Assembly: GCF_000826125.2 (NCBI RefSeq)
Contig: NZ_LN651373.1
Location: 976,333-1,010,154, forward strand
Length of the DNA: 33,822 bases
Direction of reading: 5' to 3'
Source: Bhargavaea cecembensis
GTDB lineage: Bacteria > Bacillota > Bacilli > Bacillales_A > Planococcaceae
Shown here: piece by piece, positions 6,978-30,594 of the stretch
How positions within the stretch are numbered: the stretch's first letter is position 1
Layout: every line of letters begins with the position of its first letter
The notes under the pieces: generated by a model
Told to the model about the DNA's origin: nothing
Seen by the model: the letters and a program-made list of their open reading frames with translations, nothing else
The model's database searches: none
Made by a program: the position numbers and the translations under genes

Positions 6978-7237
6978 GAGTCGTCCAGTTTTTTTGTTCC
7001 AGCCGGGTATCCGGCCGAGTCGTCCGTATCCGGCCTTGAGTCGTCCGCATATCGGTCCGAGTCGTCCGTATCCGGCCCTGAGTCGTCCGTATCTCGGTCC
7101 GAGTCGTGCGCATCCGACCTCGAGTCGTCCAGGTTTTTATTTCCAACCGGGTATTCGGCCGAGTCGCCCGCATCCGGCCCTGAGTCGTCCGCATTCGGCC
7201 TTGAGTCGTCCAGGTTTTAATTTCCAACCGGGTATCC
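6978..7237. repeat. 21-bp-period array A, left part (interrupted by an IS)
   Basis: GAGTCG begins at 6978, 7017, 7038, 7059, 7080, 7101, 7122, 7161, 7182 and 7203. Steps are 21 bp (unit like GAGTCGTCCGTATCCGGCCYT) or 39 bp. The 39-bp unit replaces the unit end with a T-rich segment (CAGGTTTTTATTTCCAACCG) and closes with GGGTATYCGGCC. Because 21 and 39 are multiples of three, several frames stay open (6889-7254, 6960-7220, and the reverse strand), but codon content is that of the repeat and no independent gene is supported. The array lies tail-to-tail between the VWA operon and the MFS gene. Confidence 0.93.
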
Positions 7238-7307
7238 TGATATGGTCCCCTTAGAGTTTACACCTTGATTCTGTCACACTAGGAGTAACGAAAAGGGGTG
7301 CCGAAAA

Positions 7308-7583
7308 ATGAACCAGAAGCGGGATTACGATATAAAAGTGAAAGCAGTGGAGGAATTTTTTGAAGGCTCTTCCACTGAGGAGTTGGCTCTTTCGTACAAT
7401 GTCTCGGATCGGACGATCCGACGCTGGGTCGAAAAAGTGGAGATGGATGGCTTCGAGGCTTTGCATGACGCCAGGGGCAAGAATGGCCGGAAACCGTCGG
7501 ATGAGAAGGATGCTCTGATTGAACTGCAGAAGGCGGAGATCCTCCTCTTAAAAAAGCTCTTGGATCTGAAAAGGGGGTGTTAA
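7308..7583 (+). CDS. IS3-family transposase OrfA (helix-turn-helix)
   Basis: A 91-residue basic protein. Residues 1-50 hold an IS3 OrfA-type helix-turn-helix (DYDIKVKAVEEF, then STEELALSYNVSDRTIRRWV). The C-terminal part has leucines and isoleucines in the heptad-like ELQKAEILLLKKLLDLK, as expected for the leucine zipper that multimerises OrfA/OrfAB. AAGGGGTG precedes the ATG. It ends at the TAA at 7581-7583, overlapping orfB by seven bases, and contains the slippery heptamer at 7550-7556. Confidence 0.92.
   Translation: MNQKRDYDIKVKAVEEFFEGSSTEELALSYNVSDRTIRRWVEKVEMDGFEALHDARGKNGRKPSDEKDALIELQKAEILLLKKLLDLKRGC
7550..7556 (+). other. Programmed -1 frameshift site A AAA AAG
   Basis: The heptamer AAAAAAG lies in orfA frame as A|AAA|AAG (zero-frame codons at 7551 and 7554). 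A -1 slip moves ribosomes into the orfB frame at 7556, which is open through the GTG at 7577. The fused OrfAB transposase would end at 8455. This is the standard IS3-family mechanism. Confidence 0.88.
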
Positions 7584-8455
7584 GCAAACAAGATAGTTTC
7601 CTGTTCATCGACCTGAATAAGGACACCTTTTCGGTCTCCCTCCTCGCGGAGGCGTCGGATGTCTCCCGGCAGGGTTATGCCAAGTGGAAGAAGCGGCAGG
7701 ATCACTCTGCCCAGGATCTCAAGGATGAGCAGATGTTTCACTATATCTCCAAGGTGTTCGCCAAGTCCCGGGGAACCTATGGGCGACGCCGGATCAAGCT
7801 GGCGCTCCAGAGAGAGTTCGGGCTCACCGTCAATATCAAGCGAATCTCCAGAATCATGCGCCGATATGGGCTCAAATGTCGGATTCGCCGCAAAGGGTAC
7901 CGTCACGGCGGTACAGAGGGGAAGGTGGCGCAGAACCTCTTGAAGCGTAACTTTAAAGCCACGAAGCCGATGAAGAAATTCTCGGTGGATATCACATACG
8001 TGCGCGCTTTCGTTCCTACGGAACACTGGACCTATCTGTGCGCCATTAAGGACCTGTACGACGACTCGATCGTAGCATTCGCCTACGGGCCGAACCAGGA
8101 CACCGGCCTGGTCCTGGAAGCGCTCGAGATGCTGGAGAAGGTGAAAGGGAACCGGAAGAAGGCCATTATCCACAGCGACCAGGGCAGCCAGTTTATGAGC
8201 CTGAGATACCAGAAACGCCTTCAGTCGATGAACCTGACACCGTCCATGTCACGGCGCGGCAACTGTTGGGATAATGCATGCATCGAGAGCTTTTTCAGTC
8301 ACTTCAAAACTGAGATTGCCTGCTTTGGCGACCCTCGGTCTCTTGAGGAGCTTCGGATTGCCATCGAGGAATATATCTACTTTTATAACCACGAACGCCT
8401 CCAGCTCAAGCACGGCGTGCCTCCTGCCGAGGTCGGAAGTGTGTTGGCTGCCTGA
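7577..8455 (+). CDS. IS3-family transposase OrfB (DDE integrase core)
   Basis: A 292-residue protein from GTG 7577, with AAGGGGG directly before the start, so it can be made alone or as an OrfAB fusion by frameshifting. An HTH_21-like segment (YGRRRIKLALQREFGLTVN) lies near residues 68-86. The catalytic triad is intact: D138 (VDITYV), D201 (HSDQGSQF) and E237 (CIESFFSHFK), with 35 residues between the second Asp and the Glu. The reading frame is uninterrupted, so the element may be active. Confidence 0.95.
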   Translation: MLSKQDSFLFIDLNKDTFSVSLLAEASDVSRQGYAKWKKRQDHSAQDLKDEQMFHYISKVFAKSRGTYGRRRIKLALQREFGLTVNIKRISRIMRRYGLKCRIRRKGYRHGGTEGKVAQNLLKRNFKATKPMKKFSVDITYVRAFVPTEHWTYLCAIKDLYDDSIVAFAYGPNQDTGLVLEALEMLEKVKGNRKKAIIHSDQGSQFMSLRYQKRLQSMNLTPSMSRRGNCWDNACIESFFSHFKTEIACFGDPRSLEELRIAIEEYIYFYNHERLQLKHGVPPAEVGSVLAA

Positions 8456-8505
8456 ATCTTTATCGGACAGAATCAACTGTAAACTTGACAGGGACCAGAC
8501 CACCA

Positions 8506-8575
8506 GGCCGAGTCGTCCGCTTCCGGCCTTGAGTCGTCCAGGTTTTTTATTCCAGCCAGACTTTCCGACAAGGCC
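8506..8575. repeat. 21-bp-period array A, right part
   Basis: GAGTCG recurs at 8510 and 8531 (21 bp apart). The second copy is followed by the T-rich long-unit segment, somewhat diverged. It continues the array on the other side of the IS. Confidence 0.88.
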
Positions 8576-8580
8576 AATTT

Positions 8581-13920: not shown

Positions 13921-14463
13921 TTAAAGATAAGATTCGGTGGCGACGAGCAGGCACTTCGCCTCGCTTTTTCCGGCGTTCGAGACGCGGTGGACGTCGGATG
14001 CTTCATAGTAGATCGCGTCCCCTTCAGCGGCCTCGAATTCTTCCTTTCCGAGTTCCAGCCGGACTTTCCCTTTAAGGACATAGATGAACGTCTCGGCGAG
14101 GGACGGCTCAAACTCCTTGAACTCCCCGCCGGGTCCGAGGCTCAGAAGCACAGGCTCCATCTCGTTCTCATTGGACTCCGACACGAGCCAGCGGACGGTA
14201 AATCCCCGCTCCTCGTCGATGTTAAGCGTATGTTCATCTTTGTGGAACACCACTTTCCGGTGAATTCCGCTGTCATCGAAGAAATCCCTCGGCGACGAGC
14301 CGAGCACTTCCAGCAGGGAGAAGAGCGTCTCGATGGAAGGGGAAGTGAGGTCCCGCTCAAGCTGGGAGATATACCCTTTGCTCAAATCCGCGCGTTCGCC
14401 GAGCTCCTCCTGGGTCAGCCCCTTTTTCAACCGGAGCCGTTTAATCTTCTTGCCGATCTGCAT
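13921..14463 (-). CDS. Xre-family regulator with C-terminal cupin domain
   Basis: A 180-residue regulator from ATG 14463, with GGAGG well placed upstream; the longer frame to 14544 runs through the promoter and is not used. Residues 1-60 form an HTH_3 domain (KIKRLRLKKGLTQEELGERA, then SKGYISQLERDLTSPSIETL). Residues 105-180 form a cupin_2 sensor (ETFIYVLKGKVRLELGKEEF, AIYYEASDVHRVSN). It is first in the pot operon, as in related Bacilli, and is likely to control it in response to polyamines (inference by context and by similarity of layout to PuuR). Confidence 0.93.
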   Translation of the reverse strand: MQIGKKIKRLRLKKGLTQEELGERADLSKGYISQLERDLTSPSIETLFSLLEVLGSSPRDFFDDSGIHRKVVFHKDEHTLNIDEERGFTVRWLVSESNENEMEPVLLSLGPGGEFKEFEPSLAETFIYVLKGKVRLELGKEEFEAAEGDAIYYEASDVHRVSNAGKSEAKCLLVATESYL

Positions 14464-14488
14464 CGGGAATCCTCCCGTCAGTTTACTA

Positions 14489-14511
14489 TTATCAAACTTA
14501 AAGTTTAATAA
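14489..14511. promoter_or_regulatory. Candidate operator for the Xre-cupin regulator
   Basis: A 23-bp near-perfect palindrome: TATCAAACTT at 14490-14499, one central base, AAGTTTAATA at 14501-14510, plus one further outer pair; only one arm pair is mismatched. It covers about +6 to +29 relative to the start expected from the promoter, so bound protein would block transcription of xre-potABCD. Confidence 0.7.
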
Positions 14512-14523
14512 AACACGTTTTTC

Positions 14524-14551
14524 ATTATACAAAAAAAGAAACAAAAAGCAA
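14524..14551 (-). promoter_or_regulatory. Promoter of xre-potABCD
   Basis: Minus strand: -35 TTGCTT (14551-14546), 16-bp spacer, -10 TATAAT (14529-14524). The spacer is an almost pure pyrimidine tract. The structured repeat array starts immediately upstream. Confidence 0.8.
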
Positions 14552-14554
14552 AGG

Positions 14555-14988
14555 CCAAAAGCGGAGCGGGCCGTTCAGACCCGACAGGCATAAGACAGCC
14601 GGCGGCGTGAAGCCTGCTTCACAGAGCCGGATGACTTATGACCCCGAGGGTTTGGCCCGCGCAGCTGGACAGACCAAAAGCGGAGCGGGCCGTGATAAGG
14701 AAGTCTGCCTAAAGGCGCCGCTTCTCGGCAACGGCTGACTGACCTGCTCCCGCAGGCCTCCGACAGGCATAAGGCGCGTTGCAAAGTGAAGCCCGCTTCG
14801 CGGCGCAACGTGACTTATGACCCCGAGCCCCTGCCGCCCGCAGCTGGACGGGCAAAAGCGGAGGGCGCCCGTTTGGAGGCGACAGGCACAAGAGGGTCTG
14901 CGTCGCGAGGCCTGCCTCGCAGAGCGGAACGGCTTGTGACCCCGAGCCTCCGGCGCCCAAAGCTGGACGGGCAAAAGCGGAGGGCGCC
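14555..14988. repeat. Array B: three structured ~115-bp repeats plus a leading fragment
   Basis: Units at 14576-14691, 14752-14869 and 14875-14988; a 3' fragment at 14555-14572. Shared blocks are GACAGGCAYAAG, CTTRTGACCCCGAG, AGCTGGAC and CAAAAGCGGAG. Between them lie segments that differ between units but stay self-complementary. Basal stem: CAGACCC/GGGTTTG, GCAGG+CTC/GAG+CCTGC, GGAGGC/GCCTCC. Second stem: CATAAG/CTTATG twice, CACAAG/CTTGTG. Apical: TGAAGC/GCTTCA, GAAGC/GCTTC, GCGAGGC/GCCTCGC. 3' hairpin: GGCCCGC/GCGGGCC in unit 1, GGCGCCC/GGGCGCC in unit 3. The 61-bp spacer 14692-14751 holds small hairpins. No coding gene is supported in 14552-15030. Confidence 0.9.
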
Positions 14989-14995
14989 GATACAT

Positions 14996-15026
14996 AAAAA
15001 CAGCGGCCTGAAAATCCGGCCGCTGT
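14996..15026 (-). terminator. Terminator of the CorA-like gene
   Basis: Minus-strand stem ACAGCGGCC (15026-15018) with its complement at 15008-15000, then a T-run from the A-tract at 14996-15000. It lies just after the stop at 15031. Confidence 0.88.
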
Positions 15027-15030
15027 AGGT

Positions 15031-16485
15031 TCACAAATTCAGGTCGTCCCATCTCATCCGGAACTTACGCCAGAGCGTGCGGCCGAGCGTAGTGAGGAAC
15101 AGATAGATCGACATGCCGATTCCGAGAACGGCGGTGAGCAGGGAAATCCACTCGAAGAAGCCGTATGACTCGACTTCCTTCCAGCTGAAGTCATCCTTCC
15201 AGTCATCAATGACGAGGTTCATTCCGTAGATTCCGGAAATCACGGTGAAGACGGTCAGGAAGAAGAGAAGCAGGTTCATCCGCGATGAAGCCGCGTTCTC
15301 CTGCACCCGGTACAATTCATCGAGCGTTCCTTTCACTTCTTTAAAAAGCAGATCTATATTGAAGGCTTCCCGAAAATGGGAGCTGAGCTCGCGGCCTTCC
15401 TGGCGTGCGCTGATATGCTCGAAGTAATACCAGGAGGAGAAGATCGTGATCAGCTGGATCAGCCGCTTGACGTATTCTTCGTCCTTATCCCATTTCAGCC
15501 GGCTATACTCAAAAGAGACGCGCAGCAACATGATCCGGTAAAAGTAATGAAGGATAAAGTTGTAGTAATGCGTGCTCATGAAGTGCGCGAGCGGACGCTC
15601 CATGCTGCTTCGCGGTTCAGTCGAAACGGCGGAAAACGAATAATCGGTCGTCAGCAAATAATAGCCCGGCGCCCACCGGTCGTGCAGATACTTTTTCAGA
15701 TAGTCTTCAATATAATCCATGTTCGACGTCGAGATAAATCGCCTGCCCGATGCATCGAGCCCGTCAACCCGCCCGATCCGAAATAGCTGCTCATCCGTGA
15801 TCTCGGTTCCCGGTTCGGCAAAGAAGAAGGCGTTCACATACATCCGCTCGTCATCGAAATACGGCAGGCTTCCGAAATAACCGGTCAGCCGCTCGTCGTG
15901 GATCACAAACGGTCTGATGGCTGATGCCGGGCGTTCGATCAGGAAGTCGTGGATGCTTCTGTATTTGCTTCCGTCCGGACAAGTAATGGAAGATCCCTTT
16001 TCCTCTTTCAGCTTGTTCTCTGCAGCCCGGAAATGCTGCGTGAAGTCGAGGATGCTGGACAGCGGAAGCGGACCGGCCGACAGCTCGACCCGTGATGTCA
16101 GAAACGCGATTCCGAACGGGGCGAGGATGATATCCAGGCTGATGATCCGAAATGGATAAGAGCGGTCCTTGACTGACAGTGTAAAGTCTTCGTTGATGGG
16201 CTTCGAGAACCGGCGGAACCCGTACTCGCCTGATGACTGAGGAAACAGCTTCTGCTCGACATACGGGAGAAAGTACTGGTCGAGCTCCTCTCGCATGACC
16301 CGGACGCCTTCCGGATGAATTTCTTCAATCGTGGAGGGGTCGTCCAGCGAGAAAAAACGGAATCCGTCCTCCTCCAGACGTTTGACGACTTCGCCGGCCT
16401 TCTTTTTCCGGTAGGCGAACGGAAGGATGAATGATAAGTGGGATTCCACAACCGTGAAATCAGTCGGTTCAGAGATGGATTTCAT
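15031..16485 (-). CDS. CorA-like (GMN-motif) membrane protein with a long N-terminal domain
   Basis: A 484-residue protein from ATG 16485, preceded by GCGGTGA; ATG 16503 lacks a site. The last 85 residues have the CorA layout: helix 1 (LLLFFLTVFTVISGIYG), the GMN motif at 421-423, a short acidic loop (IDDWKDDFSWKE), helix 2 (FEWISLLTAVLGIGMSIYLF) and a basic tail. GMN is the selectivity signature of CorA/Mrs2 Mg2+ channels. The N-terminal ~390 residues are longer than the roughly 240 usual in CorA, and I recognise no domain in them beyond helix-rich segments near 310-390. Divalent or other cation transport is inferred from the C-terminus only. Divergent from the zinc-ribbon gene. Confidence 0.75.
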   Translation of the reverse strand: MKSISEPTDFTVVESHLSFILPFAYRKKKAGEVVKRLEEDGFRFFSLDDPSTIEEIHPEGVRVMREELDQYFLPYVEQKLFPQSSGEYGFRRFSKPINEDFTLSVKDRSYPFRIISLDIILAPFGIAFLTSRVELSAGPLPLSSILDFTQHFRAAENKLKEEKGSSITCPDGSKYRSIHDFLIERPASAIRPFVIHDERLTGYFGSLPYFDDERMYVNAFFFAEPGTEITDEQLFRIGRVDGLDASGRRFISTSNMDYIEDYLKKYLHDRWAPGYYLLTTDYSFSAVSTEPRSSMERPLAHFMSTHYYNFILHYFYRIMLLRVSFEYSRLKWDKDEEYVKRLIQLITIFSSWYYFEHISARQEGRELSSHFREAFNIDLLFKEVKGTLDELYRVQENAASSRMNLLLFFLTVFTVISGIYGMNLVIDDWKDDFSWKEVESYGFFEWISLLTAVLGIGMSIYLFLTTLGRTLWRKFRMRWDDLNL

Positions 16486-16502
16486 GAATTCACCGCAGTT
16501 CA

Positions 16503-16530
16503 TTGTAGTTTCGTTTGGATGTGGTACACT
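16503..16530 (+). promoter_or_regulatory. Promoter of the zinc-ribbon gene
   Basis: TTGTAG (16503-16508), 16-bp spacer, TACACT (16525-16530). On the opposite strand TACAAT (16507-16502) could be the -10 of the CorA-like gene, so the two divergent promoters would overlap. Confidence 0.5.
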
Positions 16531-16552
16531 AATGGAAAAAGGAGGGGCGGCA

Positions 16553-16834
16553 ATGGAACGAAAGATTAACTTCTTCCTTGAATCCGGCGGCAGGAAAGGC
16601 CGGAGCGGTGTATCCCCGGTTGTTGAAGGAATCTTCCTGATGACAAAGGACCGGATCATCCCTTACGAGGAGCTCGACGATTATTGCGAAGTATGCCTTG
16701 AACCTCTGTCTTATGACGCGACGTACGATGCCGCCTACTGCGCCGAATGCAATGAATGGCGCGAAGAGGCATGCAACGATCCATCTTGCCAATTTTGCTC
16801 GGCCCGTCCGAAGCGGCCCTCCAACCGGGACTGA
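16553..16834 (+). CDS. Small Cys-rich (zinc-ribbon-like) protein
   Basis: A 93-residue protein from ATG 16553; AAAGGAGG lies eight to nine bases upstream, whereas the longer frame to 16427 has no site and overlaps the divergent gene. The C-terminal half has seven cysteines as CEVC, CAEC, then a Cys followed by C-x2-C in CNDPSCQFC, which can form one or two zinc sites. The N-terminal half (RKINFFLESGGRKGRSGVSP) is basic and could bind nucleic acid. I do not recognise the family. It is monocistronic or reads into ktrC 93 bases downstream; no terminator is seen between them. Confidence 0.8.
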   Translation: MERKINFFLESGGRKGRSGVSPVVEGIFLMTKDRIIPYEELDDYCEVCLEPLSYDATYDAAYCAECNEWREEACNDPSCQFCSARPKRPSNRD

Positions 16835-17593: not shown

Positions 17594-17630
17594 AAGCCGA
17601 GCGCCCCGAGGGACGCTCGGCTTTTCTTTT
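17594..17630 (+). terminator. Terminator of ktrC
   Basis: A 10-bp perfect stem, AAGCCGAGCG (17594-17603) with 17614-17623, followed by a T-rich run to 17630. Confidence 0.93.
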
Positions 17631-17654
17631 GAAAGCAATGAACGGGGATTCCGC

Positions 17655-17817
17655 GGATGCAACGGGCGTTTTCGCGGATACATTTTCGAATGAGGGAAAT
17701 TCATGGACGCATCCACTATTTCCGTGGACGCATTTTCGTCCGAGGGAAATTCATGGACGCATCCACTGTTTCCGTGGACGCATCCTCCGTTTTCATGGAT
17801 GCATTTTCCCATCGCCT
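17655..17817. repeat. 21-bp-period array C
   Basis: GGAYGCA-type unit starts at 17655, 17676, 17705, 17726, 17755, 17776 and 17797: steps 21, 29, 21, 29, 21, 21. The 21-bp unit is like GGACGCATCCACTATTTCCG; the 29-bp unit ends GAGGGAAATTCAT. The array lies between the ktrC and rnjA terminators, in a tail-to-tail gap. Open frames across it (17587-17844 and others) are repeat artefacts. Confidence 0.9.
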
Positions 17818-17841
17818 TCCCTGGACAACCCCGCCGCCATA

Positions 17842-17875
17842 TAAAAAACCGCACCCCGGCAAAGGAGTGCGGTTT
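17842..17875 (-). terminator. Terminator of rpoY-rnjA
   Basis: Minus-strand stem AAACCGCAC (17875-17867) with its complement 17854-17846, followed by a T-run (A-tract 17843-17848). Confidence 0.9.
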
Positions 17876-20863: not shown

Positions 20864-20948
20864 ATCTCTCTCAAAAAAATAGAAAAAGACCGCTGCCTTT
20901 TGTAGAATGGAGTCACCACAACAACACACACAAAGGAGCGATCTTTTT

Positions 20949-23183
20949 ATGTGCAATCCGAAGACTGCTACAACAGAGTATATCACAGAAATGGAGATCT
21001 TGGCAGAGGTGAACAAGCCTGAGGAAAAACGTCCAAAACGCCGGTTGGCGCCTGTCTTCAAGCCCTATGATAACCGCCAGTCCTTCGCCATCTTCGATGT
21101 CGAATCGCTGGTTCCCGATGACCATGTGGCACGTGTCATTGATGAAATGATCGAGACGATTCCGGATGATCAGCTCATTGCGCATTATTCCGGAGGCGGC
21201 CGCAGTTCTTACCACCCGAAGATGATGCTTAAGATCATTCTTTACGCCTACTCCCAAAAGGAATATTCCTGCCGGCGCATTGAAAAGCTGACAAGGGAAA
21301 GCATTCCTGCTATGTGGCTGGCCGCCGGCCAGCTTCCCGACTACCGGACCATCAATGAGTTCCGCGGGGTCCGAATGCCCAAGATGATCGATGATTTATT
21401 CGAAGCGATGGTGATGGAATTGCATCATCGCGGCTTCATTGACTTTGAAAATTACTTCCTCGATGGGACGAAAATCGAGGCGGATGCCAATAAATATTCC
21501 TTTGTATTCAAGAAAGCGGTGTTGGGATACGAGGAAAAGCTGAAAAAGAAAATCAGCGAGACCCTGCAGGAGATCCATGAGATTGCAGAGGCAGAGGGAT
21601 TCGAAATGGGAAGTCTGCCTGAAGGTGATCCTTCGGTGGAGGAACTGATGGAGACCGTCTCCCGTTTGGAAGGACAGGAAGAGATCCTGACGGACAAAAG
21701 TGAGAAAGAGACAGATACAGCGGTCCGCAAGGGAATCCGTAGAAAACGCTCGATGATCCGCAGGAAGCTCAAGTTGGTCCGGGATGACTTCATTCCGAGG
21801 AAAGAGAAATATGCTGCCCAGCTTGAGGTTTGCGGAGAAGACCGGAATAGCTACTCGAAGACAGACCCGGATGCCACATTCATGCGGATGAAAGAAGATC
21901 ATATGAAAAACGGGCAGCTCAAGCCCGGATACAATATCCAGATGGCCACCGAAAACCAATTTGTTCTCTTCTATTCTGTTCACCAGCGGCCCACAGACAC
22001 CCGGTGTCTGATCCCACACATGGAAGCCTACCGGGAAACTGCGCTGCCGATGCCAAAGCGCATTGTCGCGGATGCGGGATATGGAAGTGAGGAGAATTAC
22101 CTGTATCTTCTCGGAGAGGAAGACGGAGAAGCGGTTGCCGATTTTCTAATCCCGTATAACACCTACTTGAAAGAACAATCGCGCAGTTATAAGAAAAACG
22201 CATACAACGCCAAGAACTGGGCGTATCACGAAGAGGATGATCTGTTCGTCTGTCCGAACGGACGGAAAGTCCGCTTCAAGAAATACATGAAAAAGAAAAA
22301 TGCGTCTGGCTTCGTCCAGGATTTCAAAATCTATGAGTGCGAGGATTGCAGTGACTGCCCGTTGAAAGCACTGTGCACCAAGGCAAAAGGGAACCGGCAG
22401 GTTCACTGGAATCCGATTTATGAGGAATTGAAGGCCAAGGCAAGAAAAGCCCTTGATGATGAAACCCTAAAACAGATCTACGCCCTTCGGAAAATCGAAG
22501 TGGAGACAGTTTTTGGGAATCTCAAGGGCAATTTGGCGTTCCGTCGATTCCATCTTCGAGGGCTGGATAAGGTTCACTTGGAGTTTGGAATCCTGGCACT
22601 CGCCCACAATTTCCTGAAAGTGGCGGGCATCCTGCGGATGCCTTCTGCCAAACATATTCAAAATAAAAGGAAGGAGGCGAAAAACGATTTGTTTTTCGCC
22701 TCCTTCATCATTTTAGGGACTTATCGGACAGCCCCTTTCGCTATTTTACTGTTCCCCGAGAGGCTCGGCGTCCGGGTAATCGCGGAACGGCTCGTCCGGA
22801 TCGATGTGATCATAGAACATGATTCCGTTCAGGTGATCGAGCTCATGCTGGAATGCGATGGCGGACAGGCCTTTCAGCCGCCGCTTGATCGGTTCTCCTT
22901 CCGGCGTGAAACCCTTGATCGTCACTTTTGCGTAGCGGGGCACGAATCCCGGCACTTCGCGGTCGACCGACAGGCAGCCCTCGCCACCCGGAAGATAAGC
23001 CTTGGCGGCGGAGTGGCTGGCGATTTTCGGGTTGACGATCACGAAACTGACCGGTTCGGTCCCCTCGTCGACGATATGGAGGGCAAACATCCTTTTGGGG
23101 ACATCGATCTGGTTTGCCGCAAGCCCGATTCCGGGCCGGAGGCCGTATTTCTCGGCGAGTTCAGGATCTTGGCTGTTTTGTAG
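20949..23183 (+). CDS. IS1182-family transposase whose frame runs out of the element
   Basis: From ATG 20949, with AAAGGAG ten bases upstream, the frame is open for 744 codons. The first ~575 residues are a normal IS1182-type transposase: N-terminal DUF772 region (RLAPVFKPYDNRQSFAIFD, PDDHVARVID, HPKMMLKIILYAYSQ), a DGTKIEADANKYSF catalytic segment, RIVADAGYGSEENY, a CPNGRKVRFKKY zinc-type region with paired cysteines (CEDCSDCPLKALC), and the C-terminal IEVETVFGNLKGNLAFRRFH. No stop codon lies inside the IS: about 148 further codons come from DNA antisense to defB and its start region, and carry no domain. The biologically relevant product probably ends in or near the IS. Confidence 0.85.
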   Translation: MCNPKTATTEYITEMEILAEVNKPEEKRPKRRLAPVFKPYDNRQSFAIFDVESLVPDDHVARVIDEMIETIPDDQLIAHYSGGGRSSYHPKMMLKIILYAYSQKEYSCRRIEKLTRESIPAMWLAAGQLPDYRTINEFRGVRMPKMIDDLFEAMVMELHHRGFIDFENYFLDGTKIEADANKYSFVFKKAVLGYEEKLKKKISETLQEIHEIAEAEGFEMGSLPEGDPSVEELMETVSRLEGQEEILTDKSEKETDTAVRKGIRRKRSMIRRKLKLVRDDFIPRKEKYAAQLEVCGEDRNSYSKTDPDATFMRMKEDHMKNGQLKPGYNIQMATENQFVLFYSVHQRPTDTRCLIPHMEAYRETALPMPKRIVADAGYGSEENYLYLLGEEDGEAVADFLIPYNTYLKEQSRSYKKNAYNAKNWAYHEEDDLFVCPNGRKVRFKKYMKKKNASGFVQDFKIYECEDCSDCPLKALCTKAKGNRQVHWNPIYEELKAKARKALDDETLKQIYALRKIEVETVFGNLKGNLAFRRFHLRGLDKVHLEFGILALAHNFLKVAGILRMPSAKHIQNKRKEAKNDLFFASFIILGTYRTAPFAILLFPERLGVRVIAERLVRIDVIIEHDSVQVIELMLECDGGQAFQPPLDRFSFRRETLDRHFCVAGHESRHFAVDRQAALATRKISLGGGVAGDFRVDDHETDRFGPLVDDMEGKHPFGDIDLVCRKPDSGPEAVFLGEFRILAVL
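22671..22705 (-). terminator. Hairpin near the IS1182 right end
   Basis: A perfect 15-bp stem (22671-22685 with 22691-22705) with a five-base loop. On the minus strand it is followed by TTTTATTTT (22670-22662), so it can stop defB transcription entering the IS. It lies inside the transposase reading frame. Confidence 0.8.
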
Positions 23184-30392: not shown

Positions 30393-30423
30393 CGCTCCAA
30401 CCTCCCGAGGGGGTGGTTTCGGG

Positions 30424-30528
30424 CGAATGTTAAGCAAACCGGCGCGAATGTTAAGCAAACGCCCCCGAATGTTAAGCAAACCGGCGCGAATGTTAAGCAA
30501 ACGTCCCCGAATGTTAAGCAACCTGACC
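30424..30528. repeat. 21-bp-period array D
   Basis: Five units start with CGAATGTTAAGCAA at 30424, 30445, 30466, 30487 and 30508, each exactly 21 bp apart. The variable part alternates between CCGGCG-like and CGYCCC-like endings. It lies tail-to-tail between the deacetylase and speA, before their shared terminator. Confidence 0.95.
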
Positions 30529-30558
30529 GCATCGGCCTCACCGGACAGGCCGGACGAC

Positions 30559-30594
30559 AAAAAGCAGTTCCGCACAATCGCGGAACTGCTTTTT
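30559..30594. terminator. Bidirectional terminator between the deacetylase gene and speA
   Basis: A perfect 15-bp stem, AAAAAGCAGTTCCGC (30559-30573) with 30580-30594, six-base loop, A- and T-runs at the ends. Confidence 0.94.

Follow-up and report, generated by a model that had tools for sequence, protein, structure and literature searches.

A mobile-like structured repeat of Bacillaceae and Planococcaceae keeps a plus-strand fold, follows replication in its orientation and carries exchangeable cores in one end frame

The window analysed here is the whole stretch of 33,822 nucleotides from Bhargavaea cecembensis (the host), and coordinates count from its first letter. An array at 14557-14988 consists of three units of about 114 nucleotides and a truncated left end, and was also seen as direct repeats. 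The original prediction had placed a repeat at 14555-14988; the repeat itself stands, with its start corrected to 14557. To one side of the array is a regulator gene with HTH and cupin parts (13921-14544), and to the other a gene (15031-16659) whose protein has no Pfam match and carries a GMN motif reminiscent of CorA. Simple scans of 14400-15100 for sigma-70-type promoters and for terminators gave none.

Unit 1 (14557-14670, plus strand) reads in the sequence as left end AAAAGCGGAG, a basal helix GCGGGCC/GGCCCGC, the core GACAGGCATAAG..CTTATGACCCCGAG and right end AGCTGGAC. It matches a covariance model at 14558-14670 with 110.7 bits and folds at -57.9 kcal/mol (z -5.4). Unit 3 (14854-14968, plus strand) has CACAAG/CTTGTG in its long helix and GGGCGCC/GGCGCCC as its basal helix, matches the model at 14855-14968 with 109.1 bits, and folds at -62.5 kcal/mol (z -3.5). 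The model was built from 35 divergent copies that include units 1 and 3 and exclude unit 2, and the first two scores are therefore partly matched by construction. Unit 2 (14676-14849, plus strand) runs from left end and left arm through a Bacillaceae-1 RNA to the core and right end. The RNA module (RF01690) lies at 14693-14756 on the plus strand (cmscan 43.5 bits, gathering score 35), which makes unit 2 a chimera. Its core was found by pattern at 14762-14827, plus strand, and by the model at 14761-14827 with 49.9 bits; on the plus strand it folds with z -2.0, and 8 of 200 shuffles were equally good. The array ends in the truncated left end AAAAGCGGAGGGCGCC (14973-14988, plus strand), a match of the left-end pattern at genome position 991305-991320.

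The host genome has 45 matches to the pattern GACAGGCAYAAG..CTTRTGACCCCGAG and none to the same pattern read backwards. Two identical groups of three lie near an N at C3:590349-590654 and 591363-591668, and three of the 45 matches may be an assembly duplicate. Seen as one locus (L181, C3:590349-591668), the array and its right flank appear twice, about 1 kb apart, with the N near the second copy. Directly 3' of array ends in the host (L182, L185, L192, L195, L197) there are short tandem repeats of about 20-27 bp with a locus-specific motif, and similar short repeats form repetitive ORFs in the window at about 6990-7250, 8500-8580, 17600-17850 and 30400-30560.

The fold of the unit was derived from 102 distinct complete units, taken from the host and from loci of named genomes, of which 35 were kept at less than about 87% likeness. 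The consensus fold comprises 36 pairs. Its five helices are an outer AGC/GCT clamp, the basal helix, a second and a long helix, and an apical hairpin. Ahead of the long helix lies an internal loop that does not vary, in which GACA faces CCGA and an A is bulged. In these 35 units 95.9% of the cells pair, double changes occur in 26 of the 36 pairs, and covariation is present in all five helices. The covariation score is 0.592 versus 0.176 in shuffles, none of 500 shuffles scored as high, and sliding the partners gave at most 0.143. A tree-based test of our own, in the manner of R-scape, re-placed the changes on a FastTree tree of 94 sequences in 40 simulations; 13 of 6555 column pairs were significant, of which 11 are among the 36 fold pairs and 2 directly extend the upper helices, in an alignment that was fitted to the model and so leans towards the fold. 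The observation is real and far beyond chance.

The compensatory change from CATAAG/CTTATG to CACAAG/CTTGTG, the paired changes in the apical stem and the constant unpaired blocks are all confirmed. The original prediction had also described a basal stem that pairs in all three units; for unit 2 the stem so described is largely the end of the Bacillaceae-1 RNA. A proposed 3' hairpin, GGCCCGC/GCGGGCC, joins the 3' arm of one unit to the 5' arm of the unit that follows it. Within a unit of a host array, an average of 6.93 of 7 arm positions are paired (n = 44), whereas the arms of neighbouring units pair at 5.41 of 7 (n = 44, of which 20 come from one array of 11 identical units) or, with that array removed, at a mean of 4.1 of 7 (n = 24). 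A hairpin between neighbours was rejected as a conserved helix on these values, and it is the conserved basal helix that closes each unit.

Mispairs tell which strand is kept. Among 78 non-redundant units there are 100 G.T and 20 A.C mispairs (55 to 20 without one pair that is mostly G.T), in an alignment whose fitting may bias the count somewhat, and Watson-Crick pairs fill 2531 of 2793 paired cells. This count and the tree test omit near-identical rows, as well as the 13 of 139 rows in which fewer than 29 pairs are standard. A palindrome kept as double-stranded DNA should give equal numbers, and the excess of G.T therefore points to the plus strand as the one whose pairing is kept. Strand-biased deamination of C was rejected as its source, since in this orientation it should yield A.C. 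The pairing of the plus strand is under selection, as RNA or as single-stranded DNA. The claim of a selected single-stranded structure is thus borne out by the shuffles, by the tree-tested pairs in or extending the fold and by the strand-specific wobble, and covariation in the 35 divergent copies lies far above background.

The paired changes might also arise without selection on the fold, if the arms of palindromes correct each other during replication, which would fit the predominance of Watson-Crick pairs and the change of arms as blocks; this is very improbable, as it predicts equal G.T and A.C and leaves the invariant loop unexplained.

Copies of the unit are dispersed through genomes of Bacillaceae and Planococcaceae. 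A scan of named genomes gave at least 117 stretches, and the 80 matches listed fall in Neobacillus, Mesobacillus, Cytobacillus, Litchfieldia, Metabacillus, Niallia, Aquibacillus, Domibacillus, Planococcus, Sporosarcina and unsorted Bacillus. One listed match is in a record titled Pseudomonas. This record (JAGGRA010000031.1, "Pseudomonas sp. ISL-84", L070) carries the repeat together with a stretch that shares 92% identity with Cytobacillus G317 (L256), and the assembly is probably mislabelled or contaminated. A model search at E 1e-6, which scored up to 12 candidates per genome, found the repeat in 38 of 299 genomes of the host's class and 19 of 118 genera, and five copy-rich genomes hold 25 to 94 model matches each at 1e-10. 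In the host's own genus the exact pattern has 0 to 7 matches in seven other genomes, versus 45 in the host; G004 has 0 by exact pattern, yet 8 by model. Viral contigs gave no match to the exact pattern, plasmids none with two units as query and phages none with one unit.

Rfam gave a single gathering match in the window, the Bacillaceae-1 insert, and a permissive rescan of 14500-15050 added one match far below its gathering score. Units 1 and 3 match no family. The part of the array that belongs to an already described family is therefore the insert of unit 2 only, and the units themselves are in no Rfam family. An earlier description of the repeat was not found in the open-access literature, which was the scope of the search, as distinct from subscription papers. 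Searching the literature for the core letters gave papers that each matched one 12-letter string and were unrelated by title.

The ends and the covarying basal helix are a frame for different structured cores. A second structured core (GTATGGCC..GATAAAGGAAACACGAAGAG..CTTGACTTATCG) sits in the same end frame at L143 (100-460, minus strand), L141, L032 and L057, and at several loci the repeat's own core is nested inside the second one. Bacillaceae-1 lies inside the same ends and basal helix at L050 and L274. Composites like unit 2 were seen by eye in the host loci L173 (truncated), L177, L184, L188 and L191; L173, L191 (twice) and the window reach the Rfam cut-off and make up the four Bacillaceae-1 matches of the host, every one of them within such a unit and one truncated. 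Outside the host genome Bacillaceae-1 occupies different repeat frames as well (L263-L292), and it is a dispersed repeat itself, with 47 matches in G317 and 33 in G158. It is absent from 4 of 10 genomes searched, including three Neobacillus-like carriers of the repeat. The units of three host arrays (L185, L188, L191) share an extra hairpin (TTGCCCAACGCTTTGCTTTTGGGCA..) within the 3' arm.

By a simple ORF call, 4 of 120 clusters in named genomes and 3 of 18 in the host overlap a long frame, and the rest are intergenic except for 11 named ones near a locus edge. Copies without recognisable ends were excluded from the unit set and from the spacer, stop-codon and flank counts. For 59 of 96 first units a codirectional ORF ends within 400 nt to the left, and for 25 of the 96 the stop codon of that ORF lies at -5 to +9 nt from the left end; the right side has no such peak. 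Left flanks are A-rich, with GA preferred directly ahead of the left end (86 flanks), and target terminators often start with AAAAGC, like the left end. Relative to genes, 48 of the 120 named clusters are antisense to both neighbours and 31 are sense to both.

The original prediction had called the array a tandem mobile-like repeat. Mobility is supported by empty sites in relatives and by arrays, and in other places many copies stand alone instead of in tandem. In G003, from the same genus, 18 bp stand in place of the 462 bp at 14536-14997 (BLAST matches on both sides; L149). One gene end in three species has three, two and one units ahead of the gene's own terminator (L062, L143, L146). Two clean nested insertions were found, L280 compared with L265, L270, L275 and L290 (with an additional deletion in L285) and L147 compared with L045 and L262, and at both the target duplication is at most one base. 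By eye, L108 resembles these insertions.

Within arrays the spacers repeat their surroundings. The last 4 nt of a spacer equal the left flank of the array at 40 of 82 junctions (49%), versus 11% after permutation, and at the first junction spacer and left flank agree in 30 of 52 arrays. This repetition also occurs between unlike cores: L184 repeats AAAG, and at L057 the repeat's core alternates with the second core around one common spacer. In L191, whose 11 units are identical, CT is all that spacer and flank have in common. The arrays had suggested a fixed target duplication of 5, 8-9 or 14 bp, but this was dropped since L280 and L147 have none, and a same-looking TSD at L141 proved to be part of a nested composite present in several copies. 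We were unable to reconcile the repeated spacers and the insertions without duplication under one insertion mechanism. Several single copies (L034, L053, L058, L059, L116, L119, L135) have a common conserved 3' tail beyond the right end (ACTAAAACTAAGT...), as though the complete element extended further at these loci.

Orientation was compared with the direction of the replication fork in three chromosomes, those of Neobacillus drentensis, Neobacillus sp. SuZ13 and Cytobacillus oceanisediminis, whose starting ORF was recognised as dnaA without a profile and whose terminus was placed at half the chromosome length. In these, 67 of 88 listed sites run against the fork (p 9e-7; five genomes gave 270 matches, of which the best 150 were listed). 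In stretches that include a neighbouring gene on each side the count is 40 of 51, and these are mostly the same sites as the 88. Sites run against the fork in 14 of 15 cases between convergent or divergent genes, in 4 of 4 where both neighbours run against it, and in 22 of 32 where both neighbours run with it. Across these classes the fork is a better predictor of orientation than gene direction. ORFs of 150 codons or more run with the fork by 221 to 47; that the bias is a mere outcome of gene direction was rejected on these counts.

Two genomes were left out of the fork count and have no significant bias: G316, whose start is not at dnaA, since its first 3 kb contain no dnaA-like ORF (16 against, 12 with the fork), and G314, whose start is not anchored, because it is a draft record (10 against, 6 with). 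Adding G316 gives 83 listed sites against and 33 with the fork. The Bacillaceae-1 copies of G317 run against the fork at 32 of 47 sites (p 0.02), a count that is not independent, as some lie inside such units.

The genomes were also searched for an enzyme that could move the repeat. At 1e-10, Y1_Tnp is found in 26 of 38 carriers and 123 of 261 non-carriers (p 0.015), and RVT_1 in 18 of 38 and 127 of 261 (p 1.0). Nine of the 38 carriers, the host included, have neither at this threshold, and so Y1 is enriched but not required. Four of the nine (G000, G013, G151 and G212, the host included) have no Y1_Tnp at E 0.01, and the host has 0 RVT_1 candidates. Movement that needs a resident Y1 or RT protein was rejected for the host genome, whose assembly is 98.9% complete, so that the absence is not absolute. 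End patterns recognised no larger element with the same ends in the host genome, nor among the orphan left ends of fetched loci, of which 60 of 101 were listed. The window holds two DDE-type transposase genes (7308-8455 and 20907-22700), one with rve and HTH_21 and the other with DDE_Tnp_1_6 and DUF772.

Taken together, the unit is firmly a selected plus-strand fold in a dispersed mobile-like repeat, with an orientation that follows replication and a frame with exchangeable cores. We consider it probable, and the most likely reading, that this is a non-autonomous, chromosome-borne mobile repeat copied at replication forks. New copies would be joined to DNA at the fork, with the plus strand in the direction of the nascent lagging strand. 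The preferred targets would be A-rich sites at gene ends that resemble the element's own left end (AAAAGCGG). As every copy supplies another such left end, further copies could insert next to it, and arrays of unlike units would result. The fold would probably be recognised by a copying machinery acting in trans, and an RNA role of some copies, as 3' UTR structure or as Bacillaceae-1, would be secondary.

The main rival is template switching that needs no dedicated enzyme. A nascent lagging strand that has stalled with AAAAGC at its end would pair with the left end of another copy, be extended through that copy and return upstream; the return would duplicate target bases, and the hairpins themselves would cause the stalls. 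The against-fork orientation fits a plus strand made as the lagging strand, and the nine carriers without Y1 and RT, the AAAAGC at the start of target terminators and the exchange of cores between units all agree with such a process. It nevertheless seems unlikely to us, as L280 and L147 are precise insertions without left-end homology at the target, and template switching alone leaves the conserved unpaired end blocks unexplained.

Still less likely is a regulatory or stabilising RNA, a 3' UTR structure or a small RNA, that is kept for a host function and copied by occasional duplication. The Rfam proposal for Bacillaceae-1 is of this kind. The selected plus strand, the invariant internal loop, the position after stop codons and the association with an Rfam RNA all speak for it. 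Against it, the orientation tracks the fork and not the genes, with more named clusters antisense to both neighbours than sense to both. The window's copies are also missing at the same place in G003, and the scans around the array, made for sigma-70-type promoters among promoter types, gave neither promoter nor terminator.

A slightly poorer prospect again is an ordinary MITE, in which the paired arms would simply be the terminal inverted repeats used by a DDE transposase. Size, intergenic location and an AGC...GCGCC partly mirrored at both ends suit this idea, as do the two DDE-type genes in the window, and fork-oriented insertion is also reported for Tn7 and several IS families (PMC5371812). 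Yet the arms vary freely while they pair, which a sequence-specific transposase would not allow, and neither constant end block is the inverted form of the other. Target duplication is inconsistent, and no larger element with these ends was recognised by end patterns in the host genome or among the orphan left ends listed.

Copying of a non-autonomous repeat at the fork, the preferred reading, has points against it as well: no enzyme or parent element was found, target duplication is inconsistent, no transposition event was observed, the bias is not significant in G316 and G314, and Y1 is somewhat enriched in carriers. We would only tentatively go further and propose a new class of repeat, dependent on structure and coupled to replication, in which one frame with interchangeable cores is oriented by the fork, targets its own left end and moves without Y1 or RT. 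Many Bacillaceae and Planococcaceae carry this apparently unnamed repeat with its strand-specific fold preserved, and Bacillaceae-1, an Rfam RNA without known function, gains a physical home in it. The clear replication-linked orientation makes the spread of small, gene-free structured repeats testable, and the case is a caution that structured repeats can pass for RNA genes.

Among known systems, the repeat works like a REPIN or a MITE, yet does not show what defines either. REP sequences and REPINs are likewise short, folded, extragenic, dispersed and clustered by insertion beside earlier copies, and REPINs, too, are proposed to move in trans (PMC3116915). The REP/REPIN-RAYT system needs a Y1 protein (RAYT), which 0 of 4 carriers of the repeat have at E 0.01, though 26 of 38 have one at 1e-10. 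A REPIN is two inverted short palindromes, and the repeat is one hairpin of about 114 nt with five helices and exchangeable cores. A MITE has conserved terminal inverted repeats, whereas the arms of the repeat covary, and its constant end blocks, AAAAGCGGA and AGCTRGAC, mirror each other only in AGC/GCT. As to the fixed-length target duplication of a MITE, spacers are repeated in arrays of the repeat, and no duplication is seen at L280 and L147.

Elements reported to have a fork-related orientation include IS200/IS605, Tn7 and other families (PMC5371812). IS200/IS605 resembles the repeat in its single-strand structures and this orientation (PMC5371812). Its Y1 gene is missing in several carriers, and, judging from mispairs and orientation, the strand with the selected fold would here not be the lagging-strand template. 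A retroelement such as a group II intron or a retron needs an RT; the host has no RVT_1, and RT is equally common in carriers and non-carriers. Bacillaceae-1 (RF01690) is physically within unit 2, and the units themselves have no RF01690 match at the gathering score.

The bcr1-type repeats of the Bacillus cereus group, in the excerpts of PMC6542083 and PMC3446304 that concern them, are intergenic, 100-400 bp long, MITE-like and often found in transcripts. Compared by description, bcr mobility is linked there to TTTAT motifs, and the repeat has A-rich flanks and locus-specific spacers. The pneumococcal BOX, again compared by description, is like the repeat made of modular folded units with variable middle modules (PMC3049150). 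BOX is reported to follow the coding bias, with 60.8% on the leading strand (PMC3049150), whereas the repeat runs against the fork.
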